From positions 31,397-95,396 of the IMG/VR virus record IMGVR_UViG_3300003690_000024: 64,000 bases of DNA. One strand, 5' to 3'. The notes below the pieces were generated by a model, which worked only from the letters and a program-made list of their open reading frames with translations, was not told where the DNA came from and did not search any database. The translations under genes were made by a program, and so were the position numbers. The DNA is from a virus. Positions 29,493 to 56,301 of the stretch are shown piece by piece. Each line of letters starts with the position of its first letter. The first letter of the stretch is position 1.

Positions 29493-32411
29493 ATGTCTGT
29501 TTCTGCTGGCCCATACAAAGGAATTCTTCCATTTCTTAATATAGAGTCCTTCGCCGTGGCCGAGACCGCTGTCGGGCTAATTCTTTCCAACGAAATAGCC
29601 ATGACCTCAACTACTCCGGCAAAAACAATTACTTTTGGCAATTTTATTTTCTTATCGTCAAATAAAGAAATTATTGAAGGTTTAAATGTGGATGATGCCG
29701 CGCTCAAAGACAAGATTCTGAGCGGCACGGCGACGGGACAGAATAATGTTTATTATTTTACTTTGGATACCAAAACTGATTTTAGATATAAGATAAACAT
29801 TCAGAGAGACCATGGTATAGATGTAGTGCAGCACAAGCACACGCAAGTCTATCATATGGATTTGAGCCCGTCTTCGACACAAGACCTTTATGTTTTGGTG
29901 GCATCCTTTGCGAACAATGGTAATAACAACATTACCCTTGGGAACGTCCTAAAGGAAACAATTTTAATAGCTGGAAGGCCTCCTTTAGAGAGCTATTTAT
30001 ATAAAATGACGACCACACAAGACCATTACGGCGAAAAAGATAGTATTTGGCCCGGCGCCGTCCATCGAATCCTCCAATCGTCGATGGCGGGCCGCTATCA
30101 TACGGGGGAGCCGCATCCTATTTTATCTGCTGATAAAGTTATCAACGTAAAGTCGAGAGATACTCGAATAATACATGTCGCAGCACAGGCAACCCCTCAA
30201 ATTATGGACCGTGTAGATATTTCGAATTTAAATCTGCCGGCCGTCACCCTCGGCGGCCTCGCGGCGGGACTCCTCGCCGGATCTATGGGGCACTTTTCTC
30301 CGCTTCATACATCGAGAGATCGCGATGGTGTGGTATATGGGTATTTTGCTTTTGATATACATGATTATTTCAAAGATAATTCATTATTTGGAAAATATAT
30401 TCAAAACTCTGCCGCACTCGCAGCATGTGTGGAACTGCTAGATATTCAGATATTTCGTAGCGCAACTAAAAAATTAGACATTCGAAGTAATAAATTAACA
30501 GCTGGGGGCACCCAGACCGGTCTTTGCAAGTTGAAGACACCGGGTGCCCACGAGACCATTATCCAGGTTGCTTCTTTAAACAGCGGTGTTGAAGTAATTA
30601 AAAGGTTTAATGATGGAGAAATAATTGGCATAGCATTTAGAGATGATAATGCCGTACAATATGCGACTACCGGCTTCCAATACCATGTGCGAGTGCTTTT
30701 GTCCGATAAAACAAAAGAGGTGTTTATGTTGATAGCGGAACAGATCGGTCAACTGGTTAGGGAGTGCGGGCCTGACGATGCCCCTATTTCAGCTTGTCAA
30801 AATTTGGTGAACTTTTACATGGCTAGTATTGAGTTTTTGAACGGAATAGACGGATTTGGGCCCTTTACTAGGCGAGAATGGCAAAAAAACTTATTAACAG
30901 CAGTCTCTTCGTTCTCAGGCGAACACGATCTGGCCGCCCAGGCGTATGGCCTCTACGGCGAGAAAGAATATATAGTTAATTCGTTGATCCGGGCGTATGG
31001 CCTCGCGATTAGGAGTATTCTTCAATCCAATAGAGAAGGCACTAAGTCAGCAGTTGCCGATTTTCATTCTTCTATCTACCGCTCCAAGAACTTTCGCCCA
31101 TTGATGGCCATAGCGGATCTAAATGGTGGTATTGAACTCGGCACTTCCAGCGGTACGGGGCTCAATTATATCGATGATTATCTTAGCAATACGGGAGCGG
31201 TCATCCCCTCGATAACTTACCAAAGAATGCAGCAAAGAGTTTTAGCCGAAGAAACAAAATATCCTGAAGCAACTGAAAATGCACAAACTACAAATTCGTT
31301 TGGCTACCTCACCCCAACATCAGTGGCTCTAGGCAACAATCCTCCTATCGACACTACAAGTCAAAACATTGATCTAGGAGACGACCAGGCTCTATTTGCG
31401 AATCAGGGCGCCCCGGGGCCCTGGGACATGGGGCACTCTTCCTACGAAAATAGTAATGCCGCAGTTATAAATTCTGTGGGTATTTCTATAACTGCGTTGC
31501 CGGTTAGCCTGAATAGACTAGTCGCGGCCTCAGAACTAGTAGAACCTCAGACTACTCCTAGTTCACAAATTTTAGGCGAGAATGCGTCTGCTTTTAATAC
31601 GGACAATTCTACCGAGCAAACAGCCAACAGCGGATCGGACGAGAGCATTATTAATGTGCACCTAACCCAGGAAGGAGCTTTCTCCGGCTATGGGAGTGCC
31701 CTCGCGGCTCAGCTTTTAGGTGATGAGTTTAACAACTGGTCTCAGGCTACGCCGCCGCCTGTTGGTTTAAATTATATGGATAAGGGTTCTCTTGCGGCAA
31801 ACACACCGGCTGCGAATCAGATTCCCACAGAACCAATTCTGGGTGTACTTAATTTTGGGTCACAAGTAAGGGTGGAATATCTTTCTTCTTATGGGGTTCA
31901 AAGTGGTATTGGGGCAGAAAATTGGTCTATCTTAACCGATGTGATCTTTAGCGATGCTCGAACAAATAGTGAACTGCTTATTTGTCGACTTGTTAAGATC
32001 GAGGAGGTCCGCTACGGTACCTTCTCGAATCCAATTTTTACTCCCTTGACGACTCTTTTTATTATAGGGCCCCTTGGGAGGATAAGAATAGAAGGGAAAT
32101 ATGGTCCTCTGCTGAGTAGCTATATAGAGCAAAACTCTATATATCTGACTGAATTTCAGGGGTTTGCTAACGCATATAGGAACGAGGTCTTTTATTCCCA
32201 AACAGTTCCAATGCATGTGGAATCGTTGAATGCTGCAGCTGAATTTACCAGTACTCCTTCTGCGCCCGAAATACCACCCGGGGCCCCTAGCTTTACCCCA
32301 AGTATTCCGTCATTCGACTACGCAGCCGAGTTCGAGGAGAGGCGTCAAGCCGAGGGGGAGCGCCGTCGCCTGGAACGTGAGGCCAGTGGCAAGAGTACAG
32401 GCTATAAATAA
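29493..32411 (+). CDS. Large virion structural protein (972 aa), function unknown
   Basis: A 972-residue protein starting immediately after the previous stop. No domain is recognised. Residues about 1-330 are beta-rich and include a Gly/Ala/Leu segment (VTLGGLAAGLLAGSMG, about 250-265). A mixed helical region follows, then a Ser/Thr/Asn-rich low-complexity stretch near 600-760, and a charged Arg/Glu C-terminus (EERRQAEGERRRLERE) likely to form a helix. The lack of intergenic space supports membership of the tail operon. Confidence 0.55.
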   Translation: MSVSAGPYKGILPFLNIESFAVAETAVGLILSNEIAMTSTTPAKTITFGNFIFLSSNKEIIEGLNVDDAALKDKILSGTATGQNNVYYFTLDTKTDFRYKINIQRDHGIDVVQHKHTQVYHMDLSPSSTQDLYVLVASFANNGNNNITLGNVLKETILIAGRPPLESYLYKMTTTQDHYGEKDSIWPGAVHRILQSSMAGRYHTGEPHPILSADKVINVKSRDTRIIHVAAQATPQIMDRVDISNLNLPAVTLGGLAAGLLAGSMGHFSPLHTSRDRDGVVYGYFAFDIHDYFKDNSLFGKYIQNSAALAACVELLDIQIFRSATKKLDIRSNKLTAGGTQTGLCKLKTPGAHETIIQVASLNSGVEVIKRFNDGEIIGIAFRDDNAVQYATTGFQYHVRVLLSDKTKEVFMLIAEQIGQLVRECGPDDAPISACQNLVNFYMASIEFLNGIDGFGPFTRREWQKNLLTAVSSFSGEHDLAAQAYGLYGEKEYIVNSLIRAYGLAIRSILQSNREGTKSAVADFHSSIYRSKNFRPLMAIADLNGGIELGTSSGTGLNYIDDYLSNTGAVIPSITYQRMQQRVLAEETKYPEATENAQTTNSFGYLTPTSVALGNNPPIDTTSQNIDLGDDQALFANQGAPGPWDMGHSSYENSNAAVINSVGISITALPVSLNRLVAASELVEPQTTPSSQILGENASAFNTDNSTEQTANSGSDESIINVHLTQEGAFSGYGSALAAQLLGDEFNNWSQATPPPVGLNYMDKGSLAANTPAANQIPTEPILGVLNFGSQVRVEYLSSYGVQSGIGAENWSILTDVIFSDARTNSELLICRLVKIEEVRYGTFSNPIFTPLTTLFIIGPLGRIRIEGKYGPLLSSYIEQNSIYLTEFQGFANAYRNEVFYSQTVPMHVESLNAAAEFTSTPSAPEIPPGAPSFTPSIPSFDYAAEFEERRQAEGERRRLEREASGKSTGYK

Positions 32412-39099: not shown

Positions 39100-40003
39100 C
39101 ATATTGGGTTCCGCTTATCGGACTAATAATGAGTTTCTTTTCAAGTGCCCCTACTGCGATCATCACAAGCGTAAATTCTCAGTAAACCTCGATAAAGGTT
39201 ACTATAAGTGTTGGGTCTGTGATACGCGCGGTAAGAACTTGTATCGCGTTGTCCGCCGCTTTGGCACAAACTATGATAAAGCACAGTGGCGAGAGATTAC
39301 ATCGGAGATTGATTTCGATAGGCTCGAAGATTTGTTTGCCGAAAAAGTAGAAGAAAAACAAATACTTGAGATGCCTGAGGGGTTTGTATCCTTAGCAAAC
39401 AAGGAGGTGCCTCCGACTGGCTTTGCCGCGAGAAACTATCTCAGAAAGAGAGGCATTAGCAAGCAAGATATTGTTTGGTGGAAGATGGGCTATTGCAGCG
39501 GAGGGGAGTATGAGGGTAGAATTATTATTCCGTCATTTGATGAGGAGGGTGATTTGAACTATTTCGTTTCTCGATCTTATGACAAGGCATTCTATCCAAA
39601 ATATAAAAATCCTCCTGCAAGCAAGAACCTTATATTTAACGACCTATTTGTGGATTGGAGTTCGAATATTATTCTGGTCGAAGGCATATTTGATGCGATT
39701 ATTGCTGGCCGGAATGCGGTTCCTATCCTCGGCTCTACTTTAAATCAGCACTCAGTTTTGCTGCGTAAGATTATCAAAGAAGATGCTGGCGTTTATATTG
39801 CGCTTGACCCCGACGCCAAGAAGAAAGAGTTGGAGATTATTAAGACTTTGTTAGATTTTGATATTGAAGTATGGAAGGTTGATATTGGGGATAACGAGGA
39901 TGTTGGGGCAATGAATAAGGAACAATTCCAGAAATGCCTTGAAAATGCGACCCTTATAACTTCAGACAACTATTTATTGTTGACGCTTGTAATGTCAGTG
40001 TAG
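39068..40003 (+). CDS. DnaG-type DNA primase (zinc ribbon plus TOPRIM)
   Basis: A 311-residue primase. A four-Cys zinc ribbon (Cys27, Cys30, Cys48, Cys51, in FKCPYCDHH and KCWVCDTRG) binds template DNA. A TOPRIM catalytic core follows: Glu205 in ILVEGIFDAI and Asp247/Asp249 in IALDPDA. This is shorter than bacterial DnaG and has no helicase-binding C-terminal domain, as in T4 gp61-like phage primases. ATG 39068 lies within the resolvase gene. It would lay RNA primers for the phage replisome; polymerase and helicase genes are not in this window. Confidence 0.82.
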   Translation: MKDKKLKILTNILGSAYRTNNEFLFKCPYCDHHKRKFSVNLDKGYYKCWVCDTRGKNLYRVVRRFGTNYDKAQWREITSEIDFDRLEDLFAEKVEEKQILEMPEGFVSLANKEVPPTGFAARNYLRKRGISKQDIVWWKMGYCSGGEYEGRIIIPSFDEEGDLNYFVSRSYDKAFYPKYKNPPASKNLIFNDLFVDWSSNIILVEGIFDAIIAGRNAVPILGSTLNQHSVLLRKIIKEDAGVYIALDPDAKKKELEIIKTLLDFDIEVWKVDIGDNEDVGAMNKEQFQKCLENATLITSDNYLLLTLVMSV

Positions 40004-40010
40004 AAAACCT

Positions 40011-40199
40011 ATGAAAATCTCAAAAGCCAGAATACAACAAATCATTAAAGAGGAACTCTTTTATCGAGAGTTTTATCATAAGGGACACCAACTTGTAGAA
40101 GATAAAATAGGAGATAAAATTAAGAAATTAAAGGATGAGGGCAAGCCGCACAAGCATGCCGTGGCAATTGCTTTGGATATGGAAAGGGACAAAAAATAG
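40011..40199 (+). CDS. Leader-tagged small protein 1 (DUF6496-like module)
   Basis: A 62-codon ORF beginning with MKISKARIQQIIKEEL, the first of four leader-tagged proteins in a row. The second half, KIKKLKDEGKPHKHAVAIAL, resembles the short DUF6496-type motif known from phages. The stop TAG at 40197 comes straight after AAAAAA (40191-40196). In the -1 frame coding continues for 65 more residues to 40393, so the ORF is likely truncated by a shift at this A run. No enzyme function is suggested. It lies 8 bases after the primase stop. Confidence 0.6.
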   Translation: MKISKARIQQIIKEELFYREFYHKGHQLVEDKIGDKIKKLKDEGKPHKHAVAIALDMERDKK

Positions 40200-40393
40200 A
40201 GGAAGCTACTCCTGAACAAGTAAAGGCCGACTTAGAGCGTCCTGCAGGAGTCTCTAGAGCAGAGCACGAGATCGCCGAGCCACTTAAGAAATTAAAACAG
40301 GCATCTATTTCTTTATCTCCAAAGCAACTTAAGATATTGCGTCATCAACTTGATAGTCTTCTCCAGCAACTGGAGGAGAAGCCTCTCAGCTAA
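40196..40393 (+). CDS. -1 frame continuation of leader-tagged protein 1
   Basis: This stretch has no start codon of its own, but its reading frame (IEEATPEQVKADLERP to QQLEEKPLS) is open, helical and compositionally like its neighbours. It joins perfectly to the upstream ORF if the ribosome slips back one base on the A6 run, or if the true sequence has seven A residues: DKK-IEEATPE. The joined protein would be 127 residues. It explains the only sizeable gap between start-bearing ORFs in the window (40200-40406). Confidence 0.55.
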   Translation: MEEATPEQVKADLERPAGVSRAEHEIAEPLKKLKQASISLSPKQLKILRHQLDSLLQQLEEKPLS

Positions 40394-40406
40394 TAAGGAA
40401 GATAGA

Positions 40407-40727
40407 ATGAAAATTACCAAACAAAGACTAAAAGAGATTATCAAGGAAGAGCTTAGTGAGGCCACTGAAGTGCCCATCAGCGCCGACCTCTTCCGGCGCC
40501 CCCATGACCCGGAGCCTCGACCAGACGAAGCGGCGGACGTCTGGCGGTCTCTCCAAGACATGATACTCGAAATAGATGGTTTACGAAAAGTTATTGAAGG
40601 CATCTCTATGGAGCATGGAGCGTTTGTTCACGTGAACACTTACGCAAAGAAAGCCCATGGAGCAATTGCTCAGCTTAGCGACAAAGTACAGGATGCAATT
40701 CTTGAACGAGATCGGTGGAACAAATAA
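40407..40727 (+). CDS. Leader-tagged small protein 2
   Basis: A 106-residue protein starting MKITKQRLKEIIKEELSEAT. I chose ATG 40407 over the in-frame upstream start at 40350 because the leader begins there and AAGGAAG (40395-40401) supplies a ribosome site. After the leader comes a Pro/Arg/Asp-rich stretch, then two helices (VWRSLQDMILEIDGLRKVIE; HGAIAQLSDKVQDAILERD). The leader holds I-K-E and L-S-E followed by Ala, both fitting the [I/L]-x-E rule of T4-type prohead proteases. The body is unlike the other tagged proteins. Function is unknown. Confidence 0.65.
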   Translation: MKITKQRLKEIIKEELSEATEVPISADLFRRPHDPEPRPDEAADVWRSLQDMILEIDGLRKVIEGISMEHGAFVHVNTYAKKAHGAIAQLSDKVQDAILERDRWNK

Positions 40728-40915
40728 TGAAAATCACCAAACAAAGACTAAGAGAGATAATTCGCGAAGAGCTAGTAAAAGAAGAAATTCCTGATCGTGA
40801 ACAAAGTGCCTTCGTAGATTTTGTTCATGATAACCGACTGAGCAAAGAAGACCTAAGGGCAATCCAAACCCAGATCGCGCTGCTGCTCGATGATCCTTCG
40901 GTCCCAGATACCTAA
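40727..40915 (+). CDS. Leader-tagged small protein 3
   Basis: A 62-residue protein starting MKITKQRLREIIREELVKEE. ATG 40727 overlaps the preceding TAA as TAATG, which decides the start over in-frame ATG 40715. The body, FVDFVHDNRLSKEDLRAIQ, is a short helical module ending in an acidic tail. Its first 32 coding bases match those of the next gene at 31 positions although the downstream halves are unrelated, so the leader was copied as DNA. Function is unknown. Confidence 0.62.
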   Translation: MKITKQRLREIIREELVKEEIPDREQSAFVDFVHDNRLSKEDLRAIQTQIALLLDDPSVPDT

Positions 40916-40949
40916 AAGATGCCTGACACATCTTACAAGAGGCAATAAA

Positions 40950-41387
40950 ATGAAAATCACCAAACAAAGGCTAAGAGAGATTATAAAAGAAGAGATTGAG
41001 TATGTTGGCGCAGAAATTGAAGATGTTCCCGAACCTCCCGAGCCCGCGCCGTCAAGCCCATCTGCCGAAGCTATGACTGTAACGAGGCCTTTTTTGGCTA
41101 TGACCGATGAATTTGCAGACTATTTGGCAGCTAACGAGATACCCTCAGAATATGATGCTATTAAGCAGCACCTACTAGATCTGGGACTCCCTCGAACTGC
41201 AGCCGGTATTTATGCTTTATATGGTATGGAAAGTCATGGGGGAATGGAAGAAAGCAAAGTAAGCAGCAAGCAATCTGAGGTTACCTATGCCAGGGAAAAA
41301 CGAGGCAAGAGCAAAAAGCCGGAGAAGAAAGCCTATAATAAGGCAGCCCGGGCTCAAGCAAAGAGGGACTTAAAGAAATCAAAATAA
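40950..41387 (+). CDS. Leader-tagged protein 4 with strongly basic C-terminus
   Basis: A 145-residue protein starting MKITKQRLREIIKEEIEYVG at ATG 40950, with AAGAGGCAA upstream; the in-frame upstream start at 40890 lies in the previous gene. A Pro-rich linker leads to a helical domain (DEFADYLAANEIPSEYDAIK; LLDLGLPRTAAGIYALYG). The last 40 residues are Lys/Arg-rich (KRGKSKKPEKKAYNKAARAQ), suggesting DNA binding. A nucleic-acid-binding tail behind a cleavable leader is the layout of T4-type internal head proteins, but that function is inferred. Confidence 0.65.
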   Translation: MKITKQRLREIIKEEIEYVGAEIEDVPEPPEPAPSSPSAEAMTVTRPFLAMTDEFADYLAANEIPSEYDAIKQHLLDLGLPRTAAGIYALYGMESHGGMEESKVSSKQSEVTYAREKRGKSKKPEKKAYNKAARAQAKRDLKKSK

Positions 41388-41449: not shown

Positions 41450-44400
41450 TTGTACAAGATAGCACACATAGCAGACACACACATAAAAAATTTAAAGTTT
41501 CACTACGAGTATAAGATTGTTTTCGAGCAATTATATGAAACACTACGAAAAGAAAAAGTAGATTATATTGTACACTGCGGCGACATCGCCCACACCAAGA
41601 CCCAGCTTTCACCAGAATTCGTCGACCTCTGTTCCGATTTCTTCGCAAATCTGGCATCAATCGCCCCGACCTATATCATCCTAGGCAACCACGATGGCAA
41701 CTTGAAGAACAGTAGCCGCCAGGACGCTCTGACACCTATTGTAAAGGCTTTGAATTTGCCGGCCTTACATCTACTTAAGAACTCCGGAGAAGTCCTCATA
41801 GGCCCCGACATTGCCTTGAACGTGCTGTCGGTTTTCGATGAGGATAACTGGGTTACGCCGAGCGATGACAAGAATATCAACATTGCACTTTATCACGGCT
41901 CTGTATCCGGAGTTAAAACCGATACTGGCTGGGTGATGACGCACGGTGATCACGACGTGGGTATCTTTGGTGGGCACGACTATGCAATGCTAGGAGATAT
42001 CCATAAGACAAATCAGATTCTGGACGACGCTGGCCGCGTGAGATATTGTGGGTCAACAGTTCAGCAGAATCATGGCGAGACCAATGATAAGGGTTTCTTG
42101 ATTTGGAATATTAAAGACAAGGACACCTTTGAAGTAAACCATCATGTTCTGCTTAACCCAAAGCCCTTCAAGACCATCGAACTAACGCCAAAGGGACGAA
42201 TGCCGAAGGGCACAAAGGTTCCTGCTGGCGCACGATTACGTCTTATAAGTAACAACAATTTGCCTCTCGATATTATGCGTAAAGCGGTTGAAGTAGCCAA
42301 GCATCGATTTAAGCCAGAAAGCATTACGTTTCTCAACCGCGCCGCCGGAGAGCGAGGGACCGTTGAGATCGGCGCCGGTTTCAAAGTCGAGAATCTGAGA
42401 GATAAAGGAGTTCAGGAGAATCTTATTCGGGAGTATCTCACAGACTATGAACCTAGTGAGGAAATATTAGAGCGAGTATTTGAGCTAAATCGAAAGTATA
42501 ACTCACAGATTGAAGAGACCGAAGAGGTTGCTCGCAATATTAACTGGAATATTAATAAGTTTGAGTGGGATAATCTTTTTAACTATGGAGAAGACAATAG
42601 TGTTGATTTTACAAATTTAAACGGAATCGTCGGGATCTTTGGAAAGAATTATTCGGGAAAGTCTAGTATTATTGATGGTTTACTTTATACAATATTTAAT
42701 ACCACATCTAAGAATGAGCGTAAGAATTACAACATTATCAATCAAAACAAAAAAGAGTGCCGCGGCCGAGTCGAACTTCAAGTCGGCGAGAAGACATACA
42801 CAATCGAGAGGACCTCAGAGAAGTATATAAAGAAATTAAAAGGTGAGGTCACGAATGAGGCTCGCACAAATCTCGATTTTAGTGGGTTTGATCCGGCCGA
42901 CGGCGAGAAGAGAAGCCTTAATGGCACGACAAGGAATGAGACAGATGCACATATTCGAAAACGTTTTGGCACAGTTGAGGACTTTCTTCTTACCTCTATG
43001 TCGAGTCAGCTTGATAATTTATCGTTTATTAAGGAGGGCTCGACGCGAAGGAAGGAAATTTTAGCTAAGTTCTTGGATTTAGATATCTTTGAGAGAAAGT
43101 TTAAGTTAGCCCAGGAGGACTCTGGAGATCTAAAAGCTCTCCTCCGACGGGTGGGCGAGGCCGACTATGATAATGAGATTGCAATCGCAGAAGTTCAAAG
43201 AGATGAATCACAGAAAGAATTAGATAAAGAGGTCACCACTTGCGAGCAACTAAGGCAAGACTTGTCCCACGCTGAAGCGGAGTATTCCTCTTTGACTGAG
43301 CAAATTGATTCCATACCTGCAGAAAGATTGGATATTAAATTATTATTAGAAAATAAAGCATCTCTCGAAAAGAAGATAGAGCAAACCAATATTAATATTA
43401 TAGAGCTGAAAGAGGAGATTGATATCTATGATAAGAAACTTAAGGAGTATGATGACTTCCTCACAACGATCGACATCGAAGACCTTCTCCAACAGAAAAA
43501 AGAATATGATAATTTTAAACAAAAGTATGATGATACAGTAAACCGTGCTCGTCTTATGGACAATGAGTATAGGGTGATGAATAAAAAGATAGAGCTGCTC
43601 GATGAGGTACCGTGTGGCGATTCTTTTCCTATGTGCCAGTTTATAAGAGACGCACACCTTGCAGCTGTAGAATTACCTTCTCTAGAAGTTGAGATTATCG
43701 ACCAGATCGAAGACGCGAAAAACTATAAAACAAAGGTTGTATCGGTCGACTCAGGGGAAATGATTGAAATTATTGACAAGTATAATGATATCATTATTCA
43801 GAAGAATAATATTGAGATCGAAAAACGAGACAACAAAGTTTCTATTGAAAAGTTATATGCTAAAATTAAAACATATCGTAATGATCTGGTGTACACAGAT
43901 GCAAAAGTAGCTTTATATGAAGACAAAAAAGAGTTGATTCAAAATATTGAAAAACTTCTTGCTTCTCGCAACGGAGTACAACTTTTGATACAAGAGACAA
44001 AAGGAACAATTCAGGAATATGATGAACTGGTGAATCAGCACAATCGCCAAATAGGATCTCTTGAACAAAAGGTAGAGTCCCTTAAAGAAAAGAAGCAAGA
44101 ATTAAACAATATACGAAAGGAATATGCAGCTTATGATTTGTTTATGCATTGCACTCATTCTAATGGTATCGCCTATGATATTATCAAGAAACGCCTTCCC
44201 ATCATTAATAGTGAGGTGGCCAAAGTTCTTTCTAATATAGTAGAGTTTGATGTAGAGTTTCAGGAGGATGGGAGAAAACTTGATATTCTCATCAAACATC
44301 ATAGGCATGATCCCCGGCCAATTGAAATGGGGTCTGGTGCCGAAAAGACTGTGGCAGCGATGGCAATTCGTTTGGCTCTTCTTTCGGTATCATCGTTACC

Positions 44401-44602
44401 AAAGGGAAATATTTTTATCCTTGACGAACCCGGTACGGCCCTCGATGCAGAAAATATGGAAGGATTTATTCGAATCTTACAATTGATAAAAATGTATTTT
44501 AAAACGGTTATTCTTATATCTCATCTGGATTCACTAAAAGATATAGTCGATGTAGAAATTACCATAGACAAATCGAACGGTTTTGCTAAGGTTAGTCAGT
44601 AG
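41450..44602 (+). CDS. Fused Mre11-Rad50 (gp47-gp46, SbcD-SbcC) recombination protein
   Basis: One 1050-residue chain carries both subunits of the DNA-end-processing complex. Residues about 1-340 are the Mre11/SbcD metallophosphoesterase: HIADTHI (6-12), HCGD (42-45), GNHD (79-82) and MLGDIHK. Residues about 360-1050 are the Rad50/SbcC ATPase: Walker A GKNYSGKSS (398-406), a long coiled coil, a hook-like CGDSFPMC (722-729, so C-x6-C in place of CxxC), signature MGSGAEK (from 960) and Walker B IFILDEP (Asp992, Glu993). T4 encodes these as separate genes 47 and 46. It starts with TTG 41450, just after its own promoter. Role: resection for recombination-dependent replication. Confidence 0.88.
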   Translation: MYKIAHIADTHIKNLKFHYEYKIVFEQLYETLRKEKVDYIVHCGDIAHTKTQLSPEFVDLCSDFFANLASIAPTYIILGNHDGNLKNSSRQDALTPIVKALNLPALHLLKNSGEVLIGPDIALNVLSVFDEDNWVTPSDDKNINIALYHGSVSGVKTDTGWVMTHGDHDVGIFGGHDYAMLGDIHKTNQILDDAGRVRYCGSTVQQNHGETNDKGFLIWNIKDKDTFEVNHHVLLNPKPFKTIELTPKGRMPKGTKVPAGARLRLISNNNLPLDIMRKAVEVAKHRFKPESITFLNRAAGERGTVEIGAGFKVENLRDKGVQENLIREYLTDYEPSEEILERVFELNRKYNSQIEETEEVARNINWNINKFEWDNLFNYGEDNSVDFTNLNGIVGIFGKNYSGKSSIIDGLLYTIFNTTSKNERKNYNIINQNKKECRGRVELQVGEKTYTIERTSEKYIKKLKGEVTNEARTNLDFSGFDPADGEKRSLNGTTRNETDAHIRKRFGTVEDFLLTSMSSQLDNLSFIKEGSTRRKEILAKFLDLDIFERKFKLAQEDSGDLKALLRRVGEADYDNEIAIAEVQRDESQKELDKEVTTCEQLRQDLSHAEAEYSSLTEQIDSIPAERLDIKLLLENKASLEKKIEQTNINIIELKEEIDIYDKKLKEYDDFLTTIDIEDLLQQKKEYDNFKQKYDDTVNRARLMDNEYRVMNKKIELLDEVPCGDSFPMCQFIRDAHLAAVELPSLEVEIIDQIEDAKNYKTKVVSVDSGEMIEIIDKYNDIIIQKNNIEIEKRDNKVSIEKLYAKIKTYRNDLVYTDAKVALYEDKKELIQNIEKLLASRNGVQLLIQETKGTIQEYDELVNQHNRQIGSLEQKVESLKEKKQELNNIRKEYAAYDLFMHCTHSNGIAYDIIKKRLPIINSEVAKVLSNIVEFDVEFQEDGRKLDILIKHHRHDPRPIEMGSGAEKTVAAMAIRLALLSVSSLPKGNIFILDEPGTALDAENMEGFIRILQLIKMYFKTVILISHLDSLKDIVDVEITIDKSNGFAKVSQ

Positions 44603-47389: not shown

Positions 47390-48973
47390 ATGGTTGCTTT
47401 AAGCAAGCAAGAGATATTAAGAGAAGTAGTTAAAGCCGGAAAAGATCCGGTTTATTTTACTACAAGTTATTGCCGTATCTCTCATCCCCAAAGAGGGCTT
47501 ATCCCCTTTGATGCTTATGATTATCAAGAAGCGCTTTTAAAAGACTTCCGAGACTATCGTTTTAATATTATTCTTAAAGCTCGACAGCTTGGGATTTCTA
47601 CTATTACAGCTGCGTATATCGCGTGGTTGATGCTGTTTCATCGTGATAAAAATATTCTTGTGGTAGCAACGAAGCTTCAAACTGCAACCAATCTTGTTAA
47701 AAAAGTAAAAGCAATCATCAAGAATCTCCCTGCATGGATGAGGATCAGCGATATTGAAGTAGATAACCGTACCTCCTTTGAGCTAAAGAATGGTTCCCAA
47801 ATTAGGGGCTCTTCTACTTCTGGGGATGCTGGTCGTTCTGAGGCCTTGTCGCTTTTGGTTGTTGATGAGGCCGCGCATGTTGACCACCTGGATGAGTTGT
47901 GGACCTCTCTCTATCCTACCTTATCAACTGGTGGGCGCTGCATCGCACTGTCCACTCCAAATGGTGTAGGCAACTGGTTTCATCAGAATTGTGTTGAGGC
48001 GCAGAACGGCACCAACGATTTTTACATGACCACTCTTATGTGGGATGAACATCCCGATCGTAATAAAAAGTGGTTCGATAAAGAAACTAAAAATATGTCT
48101 AAGCGTCAAGTGGCGCAAGAGCTACAATGCAATTTTAATGTATCTGGTGAGACCGTTATTCATCCTGACGATTTAGAGTGGTATCTAGAGAGAATTGTAA
48201 CACCTAAGTATAGGACCGGATTCGATAGAAATTATTGGATTTGGGAGCAGTATGATCCCACTAAGCCGTATTTGATTATGGCCGACGTCGCGCGCGGAGA
48301 CGGAAAAGACAATAGTGCGTTTCACGTAATTCAGCTCGAAGATCTTGTACAGGTTGGTGAATATGTGGGGAAACCTAACCCTGATGACTTCGCAGATATT
48401 TTGTCCAATGTGGCGGCAGAGTATGGAAACCCCATGTTGGTGATAGAAAACAATAATATAGGCTATGCAGTACTTAAAAAATTATTAGATAAGGGGTATC
48501 CTAATCTATATCATTCCTCTAAAGGAGATCATCGGTATGTAGATCCGGTGACAGCCACGTGGCAGTCTAATGTGATAGCAGGGTTTACTACGTCTTCAAA
48601 AACACGACCTTTGATTGTGGCGAAGATGGAAGAGTTTATGAGAAACAAACTAATTAAAATTAACTCAAATCGTCTGCTTTCCGAAATGAAAACATTTATT
48701 TGGCGGAACGGGCGCCCGGAAGCAATGAGGAGCTACAATGATGATTTGGTTATGTCATTCGCCATTGGGTGTTGGGTAAGAGATACTGTGATTATAGAAA
48801 ATCAAAGAAGCCTAGAGTACAGTAAAGAATTTCTTTCCTCGATCTCTACGTCCACCACAGCTCTCTCCACCACAATTCAGGGGATGAGAGGACCTCAGGC
48901 GAATGCAGAAACAAAAAGAATGGCAGAGGGGCACGACTTTAACCAGGAATATCTTGCTCTTGTTAAAGGATAG
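47390..48973 (+). CDS. terL: Terminase large subunit (packaging ATPase and nuclease)
   Basis: A 527-residue motor protein. The ATPase part shows a Walker A variant KARQLGIST (63-71), Walker B LLVVDEAAH with Asp159/Glu160, and the coupling motif STPNG. The RNase H-fold nuclease begins with IMADVARGDGKDNSAF (Asp299 as first metal ligand), with a late acidic pair in YNDDLVMSF (Asp451, Asp452). These elements define TerL/T4 gp17, which pumps DNA through the portal and cuts it to headful length. The next gene is the portal, as usual. Length is a little shorter than T4 gp17 (610 aa). Confidence 0.92.
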   Translation: MVALSKQEILREVVKAGKDPVYFTTSYCRISHPQRGLIPFDAYDYQEALLKDFRDYRFNIILKARQLGISTITAAYIAWLMLFHRDKNILVVATKLQTATNLVKKVKAIIKNLPAWMRISDIEVDNRTSFELKNGSQIRGSSTSGDAGRSEALSLLVVDEAAHVDHLDELWTSLYPTLSTGGRCIALSTPNGVGNWFHQNCVEAQNGTNDFYMTTLMWDEHPDRNKKWFDKETKNMSKRQVAQELQCNFNVSGETVIHPDDLEWYLERIVTPKYRTGFDRNYWIWEQYDPTKPYLIMADVARGDGKDNSAFHVIQLEDLVQVGEYVGKPNPDDFADILSNVAAEYGNPMLVIENNNIGYAVLKKLLDKGYPNLYHSSKGDHRYVDPVTATWQSNVIAGFTTSSKTRPLIVAKMEEFMRNKLIKINSNRLLSEMKTFIWRNGRPEAMRSYNDDLVMSFAIGCWVRDTVIIENQRSLEYSKEFLSSISTSTTALSTTIQGMRGPQANAETKRMAEGHDFNQEYLALVKG

Positions 48974-48978
48974 AGGCT

Positions 48979-50934
48979 ATGGCAAACAACGAAAAGAACC
49001 CAAGAAACCCAGCATCACCGCTCTTTAGAAGATTAACGAGATTGCTGTCGGGGCCCATAATAAACTATCGGGCTCAAATTGCTCGACAAGAAAAGCGCGG
49101 AGACCTAGACAAATATAGATATCGTTTCCACTCCTTGAGTGGTCAAGAATTCAAACGTGCTGACAATAATTTTTCACAAAATTATAACCTGTTTACTTCG
49201 GCAGCTTTTCGAAATCAAAACCGCGCGGAGCGCTATATTGATTTTGAACAAATGGAATATATGCCTGAGATCGCGTCCGCTTTAGATATTTATGCTGACG
49301 AGATGACGACCTCTAATGAGTATGATAAGCTTGTGAGTGTTTCGTGCATGAATCTAGAAATAAAAACAATTTTAGAAACATTATTTTATGATGCGCTCAA
49401 TATTGAGTTTAACGCTTTTGGCTGGGCACGCAGCATGTGTAAGTACGGAGACTTCTTTTTATACTTAGATATCGACGATAAGATAGGGGTAACATCAATT
49501 ATAGGTCTGCCAAACAATGAGGTCGAGCGCCTTGAGGGCCAAGATCCGTCCAATCCAAATTATGTACAATATCAATGGAATACCGGCGGCGTTACTTTTG
49601 AGAATTGGCAGATTGCTCACTTTCGAATTTTAGGAAACGATCGTTATTCTCCGTATGGAACGTCCGTTCTGGATCCTGCACGCCGCATTTGGCGCCAACT
49701 AGTTTTGCTTGAGGATGCGATGATTGCGTATCGCGTTGTACGCGCCCCCGAGCGACGAATCTTTCAGATTGATGTTGGCAATATCCCGCCACAAGATGTT
49801 CCCCAGTATATGGAGAAGGTTAAGACTGAGATGAAACGTAATCAACTTGTGGATTCCACTACAGGCCGAGTTGATCTTCGTTATAACCCTCTTTCACTTG
49901 AGGAGGACTACTTCGTTCCAATGCGCGGTGGCGTTGGATCGGATATTAAGTCCTTGCAGGGTGCATCCAGTCTCAACGATATCGATGATGTTAAATATCT
50001 TCGTGATAAATTGTTTTCAGCGATTAAGATCCCTCAATCATACCTTACAAATCTTGAGGGAGATACGGAAGATAAGACCACGCTGGCTCAGAAAGATATT
50101 CGTTTTGCTCGTACTATTCAGAGATTGCAACGCCCTTTGGTAACTGAGCTTGAGAAAATTGCGGTTGTTCATCTTTATACATTAGGCTTCCGCGGAGACG
50201 ATTTAATAAGTTTTACTCTGTCTCTCAATAACCCATCTAAGCTAGCTGAGTTGCAGCAGCTTGAATATCTGCGTACCAAGTTTGACGTTGCAAATGCTAT
50301 TCCTGAAGGAACCTATAGTAAACGATGGGTTGCTAATAATATTTTGGGCCTTTCTGATGATGAATTTTTGCGCAATCAACGAGAGTCGTTCTACGATAGG
50401 AAGTGGCAACAGTCGCTTGAGACGGTCACCGAGCAGGGGGCAGAAGAAGCTTTAGCCGGCGGAGAGCTTGGAGGAGAGCTTGGAGGAGATTTAGGCGGTG
50501 AAGAACTGGGTGGCGAAGAACTGGGTGGCGAAGAACTTGCCCCCGAAGGGGGTGAAGAATCGGCCCTCTTGGCAACTCCTCCTGGACGTCGTGAGGATCT
50601 CGGAGAAGACTCTGCACACACGAGCCACTATTCTAGGGGGCGTACCTATACTAGAAAAGACGGCCGCGACGATAAGCGCAGAACATATTCTACTGGTCCG
50701 CATCGACGGGAGATTAAAAACAGTGCTTTACCTGAAGCTCCGTCGCTTCGCACGAGGCGTGTTAGAACACCGGGAGCTATGAGTATGGCAGATTTTGCAG
50801 CGTTAATAGGACTAGAAGAGAATACACCATCTATTTATAATAAAAACGAGAAATCTTTACTGGAGAATACTACGCGAGTTCGTCAACTTATTGCGCAAAT
50901 GGAAAAAAAAGAGGCACGCAATGATGAAACATAA
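48979..50934 (+). CDS. Portal protein (gp20-like)
   Basis: A 651-residue protein directly after TerL. Conserved portal segments are EYMPEIASALDIYADEMTTS (wing), YGTSVLDPARRIWRQLVLLE with DAMIAYRVVRAPERRIFQID (stem), and FSAIKIPQSYLTNLEGD (crown-proximal). Twelve copies would form the ring at the head vertex through which TerL drives DNA. After residue 490 comes a Gly/Glu/Leu repeat (see repeat entry) and a basic, Arg-rich stretch. This C-terminal extension is longer and more disordered than expected for the core fold. It overlaps the next gene by 14 bases. Confidence 0.9.
   Translation: MANNEKNPRNPASPLFRRLTRLLSGPIINYRAQIARQEKRGDLDKYRYRFHSLSGQEFKRADNNFSQNYNLFTSAAFRNQNRAERYIDFEQMEYMPEIASALDIYADEMTTSNEYDKLVSVSCMNLEIKTILETLFYDALNIEFNAFGWARSMCKYGDFFLYLDIDDKIGVTSIIGLPNNEVERLEGQDPSNPNYVQYQWNTGGVTFENWQIAHFRILGNDRYSPYGTSVLDPARRIWRQLVLLEDAMIAYRVVRAPERRIFQIDVGNIPPQDVPQYMEKVKTEMKRNQLVDSTTGRVDLRYNPLSLEEDYFVPMRGGVGSDIKSLQGASSLNDIDDVKYLRDKLFSAIKIPQSYLTNLEGDTEDKTTLAQKDIRFARTIQRLQRPLVTELEKIAVVHLYTLGFRGDDLISFTLSLNNPSKLAELQQLEYLRTKFDVANAIPEGTYSKRWVANNILGLSDDEFLRNQRESFYDRKWQQSLETVTEQGAEEALAGGELGGELGGDLGGEELGGEELGGEELAPEGGEESALLATPPGRREDLGEDSAHTSHYSRGRTYTRKDGRDDKRRTYSTGPHRREIKNSALPEAPSLRTRRVRTPGAMSMADFAALIGLEENTPSIYNKNEKSLLENTTRVRQLIAQMEKKEARNDET
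50458..50538 (+). repeat. Gly-Gly-Glu-Leu tandem repeat inside the portal gene
   Basis: 27 codons encode GGEL, GGEL, GGDL and then GGEEL three times. The last three units are nearly identical 15-base repeats (GAAGAACTGGGTGGC-type), so length could change by slippage. It lies after the conserved portal core, so copy-number change is probably tolerated. Confidence 0.75.
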
Positions 50935-52247: not shown

Positions 52248-52790
52248 ATGAGGCTCATAATGGAAAACTGGCGCCATTTTCAGGAACAAGAGAGGCTTGT
52301 TGAACTATTTGGCTTTGGCCGCGAAGCACCAGCAGAAGAAGAAGAGGACGCTCTCGGTCAAGAAGAGGAGCCTAAAATTCAAACAGTTGGGCAACTTCGA
52401 GCGTTATTTAGAAACATGAAGCTAAAAAAGACCGGCGGCGCTGCAGCCAAAAAAATGGCTAAACTTGGTCTCAGTTTTTTGGGTCCTGTTGGCGGCGCAA
52501 TTCAAGCCGGCTGGGACGCAGCAGAAGAAGGTGGAGAAATAGTCAGCGCTCTAAAAGCTCTGTATGGAGCGGACGATAAATTTAGATCTAATACAGGCCT
52601 AGATGCTCTTAATATGGATGATAACATTTCAAAAATTATTGACGACCCTATTGAGGTCGCCTTTTTAAAATATTTTATCAAGAAATTCGAAGGACTCGAT
52701 GACTCTGCTCGTTTAGATGATGTTGATATGGAACAAGAGATGCAAGAATTCCTTGCTAGTAAATTTGCTGGCCATTCGGTAAAGAAGTAG
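52248..52790 (+). CDS. Head-region protein with MENWRxF-type N-terminus
   Basis: A 180-residue protein starting MRLIMENWRHFQEQERLVEL. Short M-x-x-W/Y-x-x-F-x-x-E N-termini recall the T4 capsid-targeting sequence (MKTYQEFIAEA in internal proteins), which is removed by the gp21 protease after [L/I]-x-E; here L-V-E lies at about residues 18-20. An acidic linker, a basic Ala/Lys stretch and a Gly/Ala-rich amphipathic segment (LSFLGPVGGAIQAGWDAAEE) follow. ATG 52248 is chosen over GTG 52239. Internal head protein is my best guess, from N-terminus and position. Confidence 0.55.
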   Translation: MRLIMENWRHFQEQERLVELFGFGREAPAEEEEDALGQEEEPKIQTVGQLRALFRNMKLKKTGGAAAKKMAKLGLSFLGPVGGAIQAGWDAAEEGGEIVSALKALYGADDKFRSNTGLDALNMDDNISKIIDDPIEVAFLKYFIKKFEGLDDSARLDDVDMEQEMQEFLASKFAGHSVKK

Positions 52791-53212: not shown

Positions 53213-54220
53213 ATGGCATACAGAAAGAATAGAAAAAGAATAGATCCAAGGTACTTCTTGCACGAGACGGTAATGCGCGAGATGAATGCAGATATTGCTA
53301 AGCAGCTTGATCAAATAGTGCTGAGCGCTACACAAGCGCTGAGGGGCATACTAGAATCGGGGCTTCTCTCAGTTTCTAGGGATCCCGAAGCCCAGGCCGG
53401 CGCCGCTTTGCGTCCTGGAGATGAAGCTCCTCGAAATGTGGCAGGAGGTAAGCTGGAAGCAATGATAGCCCAGTATGTGGAAAAGTTGGATGAGACCGCA
53501 GCGTTGCAGCTTGGCCGCGGCGGCTCTTCTTCCCGCGGCGGCGATGCCGCGGCCGCGATATGCGGAGAGGTACTCCGAGATCTTCCCCCGTGCCCAGAGG
53601 GTGAAGAGGGGTGTGGATTGATGAGGAATGCAGTGGGATACTTAGCCTGTTTAGAGCAGGGTGACGGCGGCCGTTGGTTACAAGAGAATGGATTGGCGGC
53701 CGTAAATCAGAAGGTATACGGCGCCCTTAACGATAAACTAAGAAACAGCTTCCAGAAAGGTGCTCTGCAAGAGGGATGGGGCTGGCGCGCCGAAGATGAG
53801 GAAGAGTCCGGGTCTGAGTTCTTGAAGAGCAAGGGCCATGACCCCGAAACAGCCGAGCCTTTTAAAGGAACTAAAACGAAGAGAGGAGCAGCAAAACGCC
53901 AACGGCGACAAGAAGATCCGGCGGGGAAAGAAATCGAAGATTTAGATGAAGAGTGTCCCGGTACTGAAGAAGGGGGCGCAGAACTAGATATTAGTGGCCC
54001 CGGAGTTGAACTTCATGTTGATGATATTAGTCAGCTACCGCCCGATGAAGCTTTTGCAGCAGGAATTGCGGCTGCGAGAGCTGCGATCGATGAGTTAATG
54101 GATGGCGACGAGCCTCCAGCGGAAGAAGAGCTGCAGCAATCGGGGGACAGACCTGGGGTTGCGGAAGGTGTAGCGTATTGGGCTAAGTGGGCCGACGATC
54201 TACTGGGACGTCGACGTTAG
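53213..54220 (+). CDS. Acidic low-complexity head-region protein, function unknown
   Basis: A 335-residue protein that begins MAYRKNRKRIDPRYFLHETV, a basic N-terminal motif I recall at the start of unrelated proteins in marine phages. The middle holds Gly/Ala-rich blocks and a Cys-containing CPEGEEGCGL. The second half is strongly acidic with Glu/Asp clusters and a short basic patch (KTKRGAAKRQRRQ). Composition fits a scaffold or internal head protein more than an enzyme. It lies just before the prohead protease. Function is inferred from context only. Confidence 0.55.
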   Translation: MAYRKNRKRIDPRYFLHETVMREMNADIAKQLDQIVLSATQALRGILESGLLSVSRDPEAQAGAALRPGDEAPRNVAGGKLEAMIAQYVEKLDETAALQLGRGGSSSRGGDAAAAICGEVLRDLPPCPEGEEGCGLMRNAVGYLACLEQGDGGRWLQENGLAAVNQKVYGALNDKLRNSFQKGALQEGWGWRAEDEEESGSEFLKSKGHDPETAEPFKGTKTKRGAAKRQRRQEDPAGKEIEDLDEECPGTEEGGAELDISGPGVELHVDDISQLPPDEAFAAGIAAARAAIDELMDGDEPPAEEELQQSGDRPGVAEGVAYWAKWADDLLGRRR

Positions 54221-54229
54221 AAAATTTTG

Positions 54230-54826
54230 ATGCCACAGCTTCTCCGCGAATACTATGAGCTATGCGAAGGCGGCGTCTGTCAGGATCTTCTGACTGAGGC
54301 CGAGAAGACCTTTGTGCGGAATGGTGGGATGTTCCTGACCGGCAAACTTCAAGAAGCTGAGGTGCAGAATGGCAACGGAAGAGTTTACCCTCGACCGGTT
54401 TTAGAGCGCGAAGTAAAGAGATACGCGAGTGTTGTTAAGGACAATCGTGCACTGGGAGAATTAGATCATCCTGACTCCTCTATTATTAATTTAGCTAATG
54501 TATCTCATATGATCACGGAAGTGTGGATGGACGGTCCCTCGGTTATGGGCAAAGTAAAAGTTCTTGACACCCCTTCAGGTCAGATTCTACGCGCTCTGGT
54601 TGATTCGGGTGTGAAGATCGGAATCTCTTCTCGGGGGATGGGATCAGTTACCGAGACACAAGGAAAGACAATTGTGGAGGACGACTTCCAGCTGATCTGC
54701 TTTGATATTGTATCTGAGCCCTCTACACCGAATGCCTTTATGGCACTTTCCGAGAATAAACTGATGAATGAACGAATCCAGAAAAAAAATAAAATCATTA
54801 CACTAATGAATGAAATATTGGAATAA
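54230..54826 (+). CDS. Prohead protease, gp21-like (peptidase family S80)
   Basis: A 198-residue serine protease. The family core is clear: NGNGRVYPRPVLEREVKRY, ALGELDHPDSS with the catalytic His80, then VDSGVKIGISSRGMGS with the nucleophilic Ser in ISSRG (133-134), and DFQLICFDIVSEPSTPNAF. Length is close to T4 gp21 (212 aa). In T4 it digests the scaffold core, removes propeptides from capsid proteins after [I/L]-x-E and then destroys itself. TTG 54227 directly precedes ATG 54230; either could start. The next gene overlaps no coding and encodes a scaffold candidate. Confidence 0.85.
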   Translation: MPQLLREYYELCEGGVCQDLLTEAEKTFVRNGGMFLTGKLQEAEVQNGNGRVYPRPVLEREVKRYASVVKDNRALGELDHPDSSIINLANVSHMITEVWMDGPSVMGKVKVLDTPSGQILRALVDSGVKIGISSRGMGSVTETQGKTIVEDDFQLICFDIVSEPSTPNAFMALSENKLMNERIQKKNKIITLMNEILE

Positions 54827-54830
54827 TATA

Positions 54831-55607
54831 ATGCTTATATCAGAGACGGAATTAGAAGAGCTTATTAAAGAAGAAATCGAGAGAGCAATTGATGAAGGCT
54901 GGCTCGATCGTATGATTGCAAAGGGGTCTGGGTTGAAGTCTAGGATGGGAGGTGCCTTATCTGGACTGGGTGCGAAAGCAGCCCGCGGCCTCGGCGCCGA
55001 TACTGCTGCTGCAGAGATGGAGAAAGCTGGAGCGACCCGTACGGCCGCTGCTCCGAATCAGGAGAAGCTGGGCTTAATGAAGCAGCATTCACGCAAGTTT
55101 AGCATTGTATCGACAGACATGATCAAGGATGCCCAGAAATTGGGACTTCTGGAGGATCCCAATTTTAAGAAAGCATTAGCGGCAGCCAAAGCAGTAGCAA
55201 CACGTATGAACAATATCGTGGCAGCTTGGGAAAAGGCCCCCGAACAGATTCCGGGCGGTGAAGGCGCCGCCGGTGCCGTACCCGAGGTGACCGCTGTTAA
55301 TCAAAATAATCTAGCCACAAGAGATGCAGATAATTATGGAGATGATCGCAAACTTAATGCAAAAGGCCTCCAGCTAGCCAAAGCACAAGTAGCTTTCTTA
55401 AATAAGCAAGGTAAAAATGTTCCCGATCTTTTGAGCAAAGCTATTCAAGATGCTGAAGCGGGATCGCAAGAGAATATTCCAACTCAGGTAGTACCAAAGG
55501 ACGATCTTGATGCAGAGGTCGCCGCCAGACAGGCAGCCGGCTCGCCGCCCGTTCGCGAGGCTCTTAAGAAAATTATAAGAGAAGAACTACAAAGGATGGC
55601 AAGCTAG
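54831..55607 (+). CDS. Scaffold/core-protein candidate with leader-like helices at both ends
   Basis: A 258-residue protein starting MLISETELEELIKEEIERAI and ending VREALKKIIREELQRMAS. Both ends resemble the leader of the four proteins near 40-41 kb, and they hold possible protease sites (I-K-E, I-D-E before Gly, I-R-E). The middle is Ala/Gly/Lys-rich and helical (GALSGLGAKAARGLGADTAA). It follows the prohead protease by four bases, where T4 has scaffold gene 22. ATG 54831 is preferred over in-frame TTG-type starts upstream. Main scaffold or internal protein is an inference from place and composition. Confidence 0.55.
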   Translation: MLISETELEELIKEEIERAIDEGWLDRMIAKGSGLKSRMGGALSGLGAKAARGLGADTAAAEMEKAGATRTAAAPNQEKLGLMKQHSRKFSIVSTDMIKDAQKLGLLEDPNFKKALAAAKAVATRMNNIVAAWEKAPEQIPGGEGAAGAVPEVTAVNQNNLATRDADNYGDDRKLNAKGLQLAKAQVAFLNKQGKNVPDLLSKAIQDAEAGSQENIPTQVVPKDDLDAEVAARQAAGSPPVREALKKIIREELQRMAS

Positions 55608-55610
55608 AGA

Positions 55611-56066
55611 ATGAAAAAGTCTGAATTAAAAAATATTTTAAAGCCGCTTATTAAAGAATGTATAAAAGAGGTTATATTTGAAGAGGGCGTTCTCTCTGGA
55701 ATTATAACAGAAGTGGCTCATGGTGTAAGCGGTTTGCGCACCGAGAGCTTCGAGCCTCCCGCGCTTCCTGTAGATCCGCCGCTTCGGAGAATACAGCACA
55801 ATGCGTTTAGTGAGCAGCCCACATCGAAACTGCAAGAGCATAAAAAGAAGTTAATGGAGGCCATTGGAGGAAAAACTTTTAATAATACAAATTTGTTCGA
55901 AGGAACGACTCCGACTTTAGGAGAGACCTCCCCCATTCAGCAGTCTAGTCCGGTGTCTGGAATGGATCCCACCGATAAGGGAGTGGACATTAGTAACCTA
56001 TTCGGGGCAGTCGGTAGAAATTGGACAGCCCACATGAATGATGTGAAAGCGAAAGAAGGAAAGTAG
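55611..56066 (+). CDS. Head-region protein with helical Glu/Lys-rich N-terminus
   Basis: A 151-residue protein. The first 30 residues, MKKSELKNILKPLIKECIKE followed by VIFEEG, form an amphipathic helix of the same style as the MKITKQRLREIIKEEL leader. Two I-K-E sites and an F-E-E site lie in it. The rest is Pro/Ser/Thr-rich and probably disordered (PTLGETSPIQQSSPVSGMD). It is three bases from the scaffold candidate and precedes bS21. Internal virion protein is the best guess. Confidence 0.55.
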   Translation: MKKSELKNILKPLIKECIKEVIFEEGVLSGIITEVAHGVSGLRTESFEPPALPVDPPLRRIQHNAFSEQPTSKLQEHKKKLMEAIGGKTFNNTNLFEGTTPTLGETSPIQQSSPVSGMDPTDKGVDISNLFGAVGRNWTAHMNDVKAKEGK

Positions 56067-56073
56067 GTGTAGT

Positions 56074-56301
56074 GTGGCGATAAACGTGAGAGTAGAATTA
56101 AGAAGAGGCGAGACTACAGAACGACTTATTAGAAGGTTTATTAAAAAATGTAAGAAAGAAAAGGTGGTCGAGCAGTATCGTGCGCACACAGATCATTATA
56201 TTAAACCCTCGGTGAGAAGGAAGCTAAAGAGTACCAAGGCGCGCCGAGAGCAAAAAAAGCTTCAAAATAGAAAAAACAAGAAAAATAAAATGTTCAGATG
56301 A
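56074..56301 (+). CDS. rpsU: Ribosomal protein bS21 homologue
   Basis: A 75-residue, strongly basic protein. VELRRGETTERLIRRFIKKC and KPSVRRKLKSTKARREQKKL match the bS21 pattern (VRxxExxxxALRRFKKxC, then EKPSxxRKRKxxxARRRxxK). bS21 sits on the 30S platform near the anti-Shine-Dalgarno end of 16S rRNA and affects initiation. Phage-encoded bS21 is documented in several viral genomes, especially aquatic ones. GTG 56074 follows GAAGGAAAGTAGGTG. A phage copy could replace the host protein and bias initiation toward phage messages; that use is inference. Confidence 0.8.
   Translation: MAINVRVELRRGETTERLIRRFIKKCKKEKVVEQYRAHTDHYIKPSVRRKLKSTKARREQKKLQNRKNKKNKMFR

Follow-up and report, generated by a model that had tools for sequence, protein, structure and literature searches.

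The stretch of DNA analysed here (the window) comprises 64,000 bases, positions 31397–95396 of a 95,396-base virus record. At 40011–41387 it contains four adjacent genes, with ATG leader starts at 40011, 40407, 40727 and 40950, whose products begin with a common leader of the consensus MKI[ST]Kxx[LI]xxIIxEE[LI] (leader A) and have unrelated bodies (Table 1). The ORF tool offered longer TTG, GTG or ATG starts for the last three of these genes, but the leader profile scored only the leader ATG. The copies were also alike as DNA: over the first 32 bases, 40727 and 40950 were identical at 31 positions and 40407 matched these two at 29–30, the likeness ended at about codon 16, and 5' of the genes only 6–9 of 30 bases matched. 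The start sites and the leader profile therefore bear out the preliminary description of this DNA in respect of four consecutive genes with one leader and divergent bodies, and the conservation of the leader copies at the DNA level was found as it had been described. The DUF6496-like module that it had seen in one body received no support from Pfam. Neither Pfam nor PHROGs gave an informative match for the four window bodies, and comparison with the fetched loci revealed no relatives apart from the leader. Directly after the tagged operon, at 41450–44602, a single gene fuses an SbcD-like nuclease with an SbcC-like ATPase (gp47/gp46 type).

Table 1. Leader-bearing genes and head-block features of the window.
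Feature	Position	Strand	Details
Motif CTATTTAT	39970..39977	+	41 bases 5' of the first tagged gene, inside the end of the primase gene
Tagged gene 1	40011..40199	+	Leader MKISKARIQQIIKEEL; 62 aa; leader profile 29.8 bits
Tagged gene 2	40407..40727	+	Leader MKITKQRLKEIIKEEL; 106 aa; leader profile 50.8 bits
Tagged gene 3	40727..40915	+	Leader MKITKQRLREIIREEL; 62 aa; leader profile 44.7 bits
Tagged gene 4	40950..41387	+	Leader MKITKQRLREIIKEEI; 145 aa, Lys/Arg-rich tail; leader profile 50.3 bits
Large terminase, T4 gp17-like	47390..48973	+	phrog_2, 5e-55
Portal protein, T4 gp20-like	48979..50934	+	Start of head block; phrog_213, 2.5e-72
Head-block protein with leader B	52248..52790	+	Leader MRLIMENWRHFQEQE; leader profile 30.4 bits
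Protein just 5' of the protease	53213..54220	+	Lys/Arg-rich module in common with a leader-type protein at record position 2871
Prohead protease, T4 gp21 family	54230..54826	+	Peptidase_S77, PF03420, 9e-34
Protease neighbour with leader A	54831..55607	+	Leader MLISETELEELIKEEIERAIDE, followed by G; leader profile 26.7 bits
C-terminal leader-like copy in the 54831 protein	55557..55604	+	ALKKIIREELQRMAS; 24.8 bits
Conserved protease neighbour in the virus group	55611..56066	+	Lysine-rich; leader-like N-terminus by eye only

The terminase, portal protein and S77 protease identify the surroundings, by sequence, as those of a T4-related virus. The preliminary description had taken the protease for a member of S80; Pfam assigned it to Peptidase_S77, the T4 gp21 type. 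Two genes close to it bear leaders. That at 52248, between the portal and protease genes, has leader B, the second leader of this genome, and has homologues in other viruses, several of which carry leader B too. The gene at 54831 scored 26.7 bits with a leader profile made from other viruses, compared with 9.1 bits for the best of 14,529 null starts, which confirms the earlier suggestion that this head-block protein carries the leader; the same suggestion for 55611 rested on a likeness by eye and was not upheld. A role for 54831 as the scaffold gene was considered and rejected, as other genomes place a gp22-like scaffold beside the capsid gene, past the end of this record. Across the virus group, leader A or B genes were found between the portal and capsid genes in 12 of 26 head blocks, mostly adjoining the protease; in the other 14 this interval was without a leader gene, and most tagged genes were located outside the head block. 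The protein encoded at 53213–54220 and a leader-type protein elsewhere in the record (L005:2871-3332) have in common the module SGSxFLKSKGHDPETAxPFKGTKTKRGAAKRQRR, and tagged cargo of other viruses contains further recurrent Lys-rich modules. Between the protease and decoration genes, 56074–56301 encodes a small basic protein resembling ribosomal protein bS21; the gene has the same position in other members of the group and in Microcystis phage Mel-JY01, where it is annotated RpsU.

Every start region of the 95,396-base record was compared with the others de novo, with no prior motif. This gave 30 pairs above threshold, against 0 after shuffling, with a leader A cluster of 6 genes and a cluster of 5 genes sharing a different leader, MKLLxENWRxYLxE (leader B); several genes that lie in the record but outside the window have MKLLLENWRKYL[KN]E-like starts that belong to leader B. 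The leader first described is thus real, but the second leader and the large scale of the system had been missed. When profiles were run on the fetched loci and the attached bodies recorded, a search that the preliminary description had proposed, 779 unique proteins with leader A or B were obtained, falling into 511 body clusters of which 415 were singletons; the first scan alone had already shown 150 distinct bodies on one short N-terminal sequence. Tagged genes frequently adjoined one another, in runs of up to 10. One 22-codon ORF (L005:2263-2331) consists almost purely of leader A (MKITKSQLKQIIKEEPEAATGQ, then stop) and lies directly 5' of a leader B gene at 2333.

As a DNA pattern, leader A matched at least 120 stretches in IMG/VR, and leader B matched stretches there too, among the matches listed. 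Bacterial and archaeal genomes totalling 257 Gb gave 11 leader A matches, all of them on MAG contigs and one of these a WOR-3 chromosome; the leader is almost absent from cellular genomes and so virus-specific. On three MAG contigs (L131, L132 and L136), about 12 or more genes with leader A are packed into 8 kb, in places without a break. As an S77 protease was also present in 2 of the 7 MAGs searched, these contigs resemble virus sequence binned with bacteria. The search for named relatives was less productive: tblastn with 20-residue leaders against named phages gave nothing useful, the queries being too short for statistics, and no isolate close to this virus group was found in the phage collection.

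Several properties of the leaders concerned the peptide itself. At the fixed leader positions synonymous codons varied freely across viruses, indicating that the peptide is the conserved entity. Related bodies bore either leader, depending on the virus: VGDVLLGGRFKNKR-type proteins have A in L089 and L130 and B in L260 and L078, and a 52-residue body has A in L125 and B in L387, while some further matches between A and B bodies were shared Lys-rich modules, not whole bodies. Second, internal leader copies were present in 32 tagged proteins, compared with 0.2 expected, and many of these copies keep the L-x-E tail. Calculation of the helical moment showed leader B to be amphipathic beyond most shuffles; that of leader A was no higher than in shuffled sequence, and an amphipathic helix was accordingly rejected for leader A.

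The end of leader A was analysed in 373 distinct proteins selected on residues 1–16 only. Conservation dropped after residue 22, and [LIVM]-x-E occurred at residues 20–23 in 54.7% of the proteins, compared with 5–9% in control windows of equal size further along the proteins (p 7e-54). In 39% of cases A, G or S came next, twice the 19% found elsewhere (p 4e-9); about 45% of the leader A proteins have no [LIVM]-x-E at these residues. Among the four window proteins only that of 40407 has a canonical L-x-E↓A site just past the leader (the arrow marks the predicted cut), where MKITKQRLKEIIKEEL continues with S-E↓A to give L-S-E↓A at residues 16–18. The 40727 protein has V-K-E↓E after its leader and the 40011 and 40950 proteins have no canonical site there, whereas the protease neighbour at 54831 has I-D-E↓G at residues 20–22, with E at residue 22. 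Major capsid proteins of this virus group have an L-x-E↓A/S site about 55–65 residues from the start, at a position which we take to correspond to the T4 gp23 cleavage site. The cut sites first put forward were I-K-E, I-R-E and L-S-E; L-S-E↓A in the 40407 protein stands, but I-x-E within leader A precedes another E, and the leader A cut site most likely falls at residues 21/22 and not at the I-x-E within the leader. For leader B, the search pattern already contained E14 and a hydrophobic residue 12, and its L-x-E end is consequently not independent evidence. In T4, gp21 cuts after L/I-X-E and the targeting propeptides (capsid-targeting sequences, CTSs) are 10–19 residues long (PMC9026906).

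Upstream of the tagged genes, the word ACTATTTA was found 5' of 76/762 genes, compared with 7/722 shifted controls. The motif CTATTTA[AT] preceded 64 of 437 lone or first tagged genes as against 6 of 331 inner ones, always in sense orientation. It also preceded 31 of 55 homologues of scaffold, decoration and tail-sheath genes and 3 of the 4 PhoH-type ones, but none of the 40 related to replication-type genes (RuvC, primase, SbcCD and others). The record contains 12 sense copies (that at 39970 in the window and 11 more) and no antisense copy. This distribution suggests that CTATTTA[AT] is probably the late promoter of this virus group, and the common upstream motif points, indirectly, to expression of the tagged genes late and together with virion genes. 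The T4 late promoter TATAAATA was not enriched before tagged genes; CTATTTA[AT] was enriched instead, and it is unlike the late promoters of T4 and cyanophages, TATAAATA/NATAAATA (PMC2984593).

Few tagged bodies were recognised by Pfam. Those that were comprised M23 peptidase, LysM, NUDIX, protein kinases, AAA_33/zeta-type kinases, C5 methylase, GNAT, ADP-ribosyltransferase, HAD, sigma-70 region 2, a TseH-like domain and pentapeptide repeats, and ParB-like and nuclease families were also among the cargo. No polymerase, helicase, terminase or ribonucleotide reductase was present among the families listed for the 206 cargo proteins scanned (for PHROGs, the 25 commonest of 65 families). The tagged ADP-ribosyltransferase has a parallel in T4 Alt, an enzyme of the same kind that bears a targeting propeptide (PMC9026906).

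The preliminary description had also called for a comparison of the leader with the presence of the protease across genomes. Of 47 tag-bearing virus records, 25 had an S77 protease, among them all 17 of at least 130 kb, as against 1 of 23 random large records (p 4e-5); neither leader was found in any of the random records. Taken alone this co-occurrence is weak evidence, because the tag-bearing viruses are all relatives and kinship contributes in part; combined with the cleavage signal and the gene neighbourhood, it is not weak. Together with the virus-only spread, the positional L-x-E↓A/G/S signal, the tagged genes adjoining the protease, the leader swapping and the late-gene motif, it supports the core of the original proposal, a modular head-targeting tag linked to the protease; the S80 assignment and the I-x-E cut site within the leader were the parts that did not hold. 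We therefore favour, with a probability of roughly 0.84, the reading that the leader would be a capsid-targeting sequence of the T4 type, attached to a large and interchangeable cargo that includes enzymes, and cut by the S77 protease in the prohead. On this model the tagged proteins would be made late in infection, the short N-terminal segment of the leader would bind the prohead core, and any body fused to the leader would enter the prohead with it. Once inside, the leader is predicted to be cut by the S77 protease after [LI]-x-E at the leader end, mostly at residue 21 or 22 for leader A and at residue 14 for leader B, freeing the cargo inside the head, from which it would probably pass into the next host along with the DNA. 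Points against this reading are the three window proteins and the roughly 45% of leader A proteins that do not have the expected site, the 14 head blocks in which no leader gene lies between portal and capsid genes, the helical moment of leader A, and the nearest isolates, which have S77 but neither leader.

Part of the evidence could be read in other ways. The leader might be a docking tag for a cytosolic machine, such as a replication or transcription complex or a compartment, unrelated to the head. The cargo includes enzymes of nucleic acids and nucleotides (methylase, NUDIX, kinase, ParB-like, sigma-70 region 2), of which the NUDIX proteins, like the nucleases, would also be plausible in the cytosol, and the majority of tagged genes are away from the head block. 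We nevertheless consider this unlikely, as the four enzyme classes named above are missing from the families listed, and a cytosolic tag would leave unexplained why conservation stops at L-x-E↓A/G/S, why protease neighbours carry leaders and why the tagged genes share a motif with virion genes. Still less probable is that the leader targets another part of the virion or a membrane (tail lumen, neck or assembly site) instead of the prohead core. The late motif and the virus specificity would be accounted for by virion association alone, and the amphipathic character of leader B fits such a destination, but a gp21-type site acts inside proheads and the leader-bearing protease neighbours are in the portal-to-capsid block, not in a tail block. 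The near-identity of three of the window copies as DNA would be expected if the common 5' end were a recombination joint or the leftover of recent duplication, with no peptide function; we regard this as highly improbable, since the peptide is kept across viruses while synonymous codons vary, and since related bodies can carry either of two unrelated leaders.

The system resembles that of the T4 internal proteins IPI, IPII and IPIII and Alt, which carry a gp21-processed CTS (PMC9026906, PMC3012670), in having a short N-terminal leader on unrelated bodies, a gp21-family S77 protease, L/I-x-E at the leader end and late-type expression, the last judged here from the upstream motif. In T4, ipII and ipIII have different bodies and both begin MKTYQEFIAE↓A. 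The leader B end, [YF][LIV]xE, resembles the FIAE of this sequence; what the two have in common is limited to the end pattern aromatic-[LI]-x-E, too short for a claim of homology. Unlike the T4 CTS, the leaders here have different sequences, of 22 and 14 residues compared with 10, occur as two interchangeable types in one genome, recur as internal and C-terminal copies and are attached to far more cargo (511 body clusters, with up to 10 tagged genes adjacent). In phage P1, N-terminal residues of DarB (more than 9 and up to 30) likewise send the body or a foreign reporter into the head, but that study found no consensus in the Dar N-termini, whereas the leaders here are strongly shared (PMC9024508). 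The propeptides of SPN3US and phiKZ-type phages are also N-terminal, are cut by the prohead protease after x-x-E and sit on proteins that enter the cell; they differ in being mostly long (79 to >120 residues) and are not presented as one shared short tag (PMC5694885). The capsid-targeting principle is thus already known, the T4 internal proteins being a diverse set conserved only in the targeting sequence (PMC3012670); in the open literature searched, we found no description of these leaders, of the scale on which they occur or of their exchange for one another.

A bolder extension, to which we give slightly less than an even chance, is that the cargo is open-ended, the two interchangeable tags turning any newly acquired gene into a virion passenger, so that single genomes would carry many tagged proteins in runs; the protease would free these passengers, which would enter the host as a mixture of effectors; such a plug-in cargo would span kinases, ADP-ribosyltransferase, acetyltransferases, methylase and cell-wall peptidases. 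The two tags may also sort cargo to different places or in different amounts. If the targeting model is correct, a string of 16–22 residues would suffice to pick head-packed proteins from sequence alone, and a large uncultivated T4-related group would have hundreds of distinct head proteins, most without known relatives. Each tagged protein would then have a predicted location, mature N-terminus and time of action (entry), so that unknown genes could be tested for a part in host takeover and counter-defence, and the leaders could serve as new tags for loading proteins into phage heads.

Elsewhere in the same virus record, glycosyltransferase, nucleotide-sugar and carbamoyltransferase-like genes occupy about 15 kb (L006:271-15437). 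The isolates that come nearest are Flavobacterium phage immuto and Microcystis phage Mel-JY01; both have an S77 protease, and neither leader was found in them. In phage immuto, two other small groups share a start, each a pair of different proteins: L397:1802 and L403:1632 begin with MENFDLKKFLVEN[KR]LT.NSK, and L398:5561 and L402:14175 with MKKQILSEQF[KR]RMQ.LAGIITES. These shared starts are possibly the leaders of another S77 phage.
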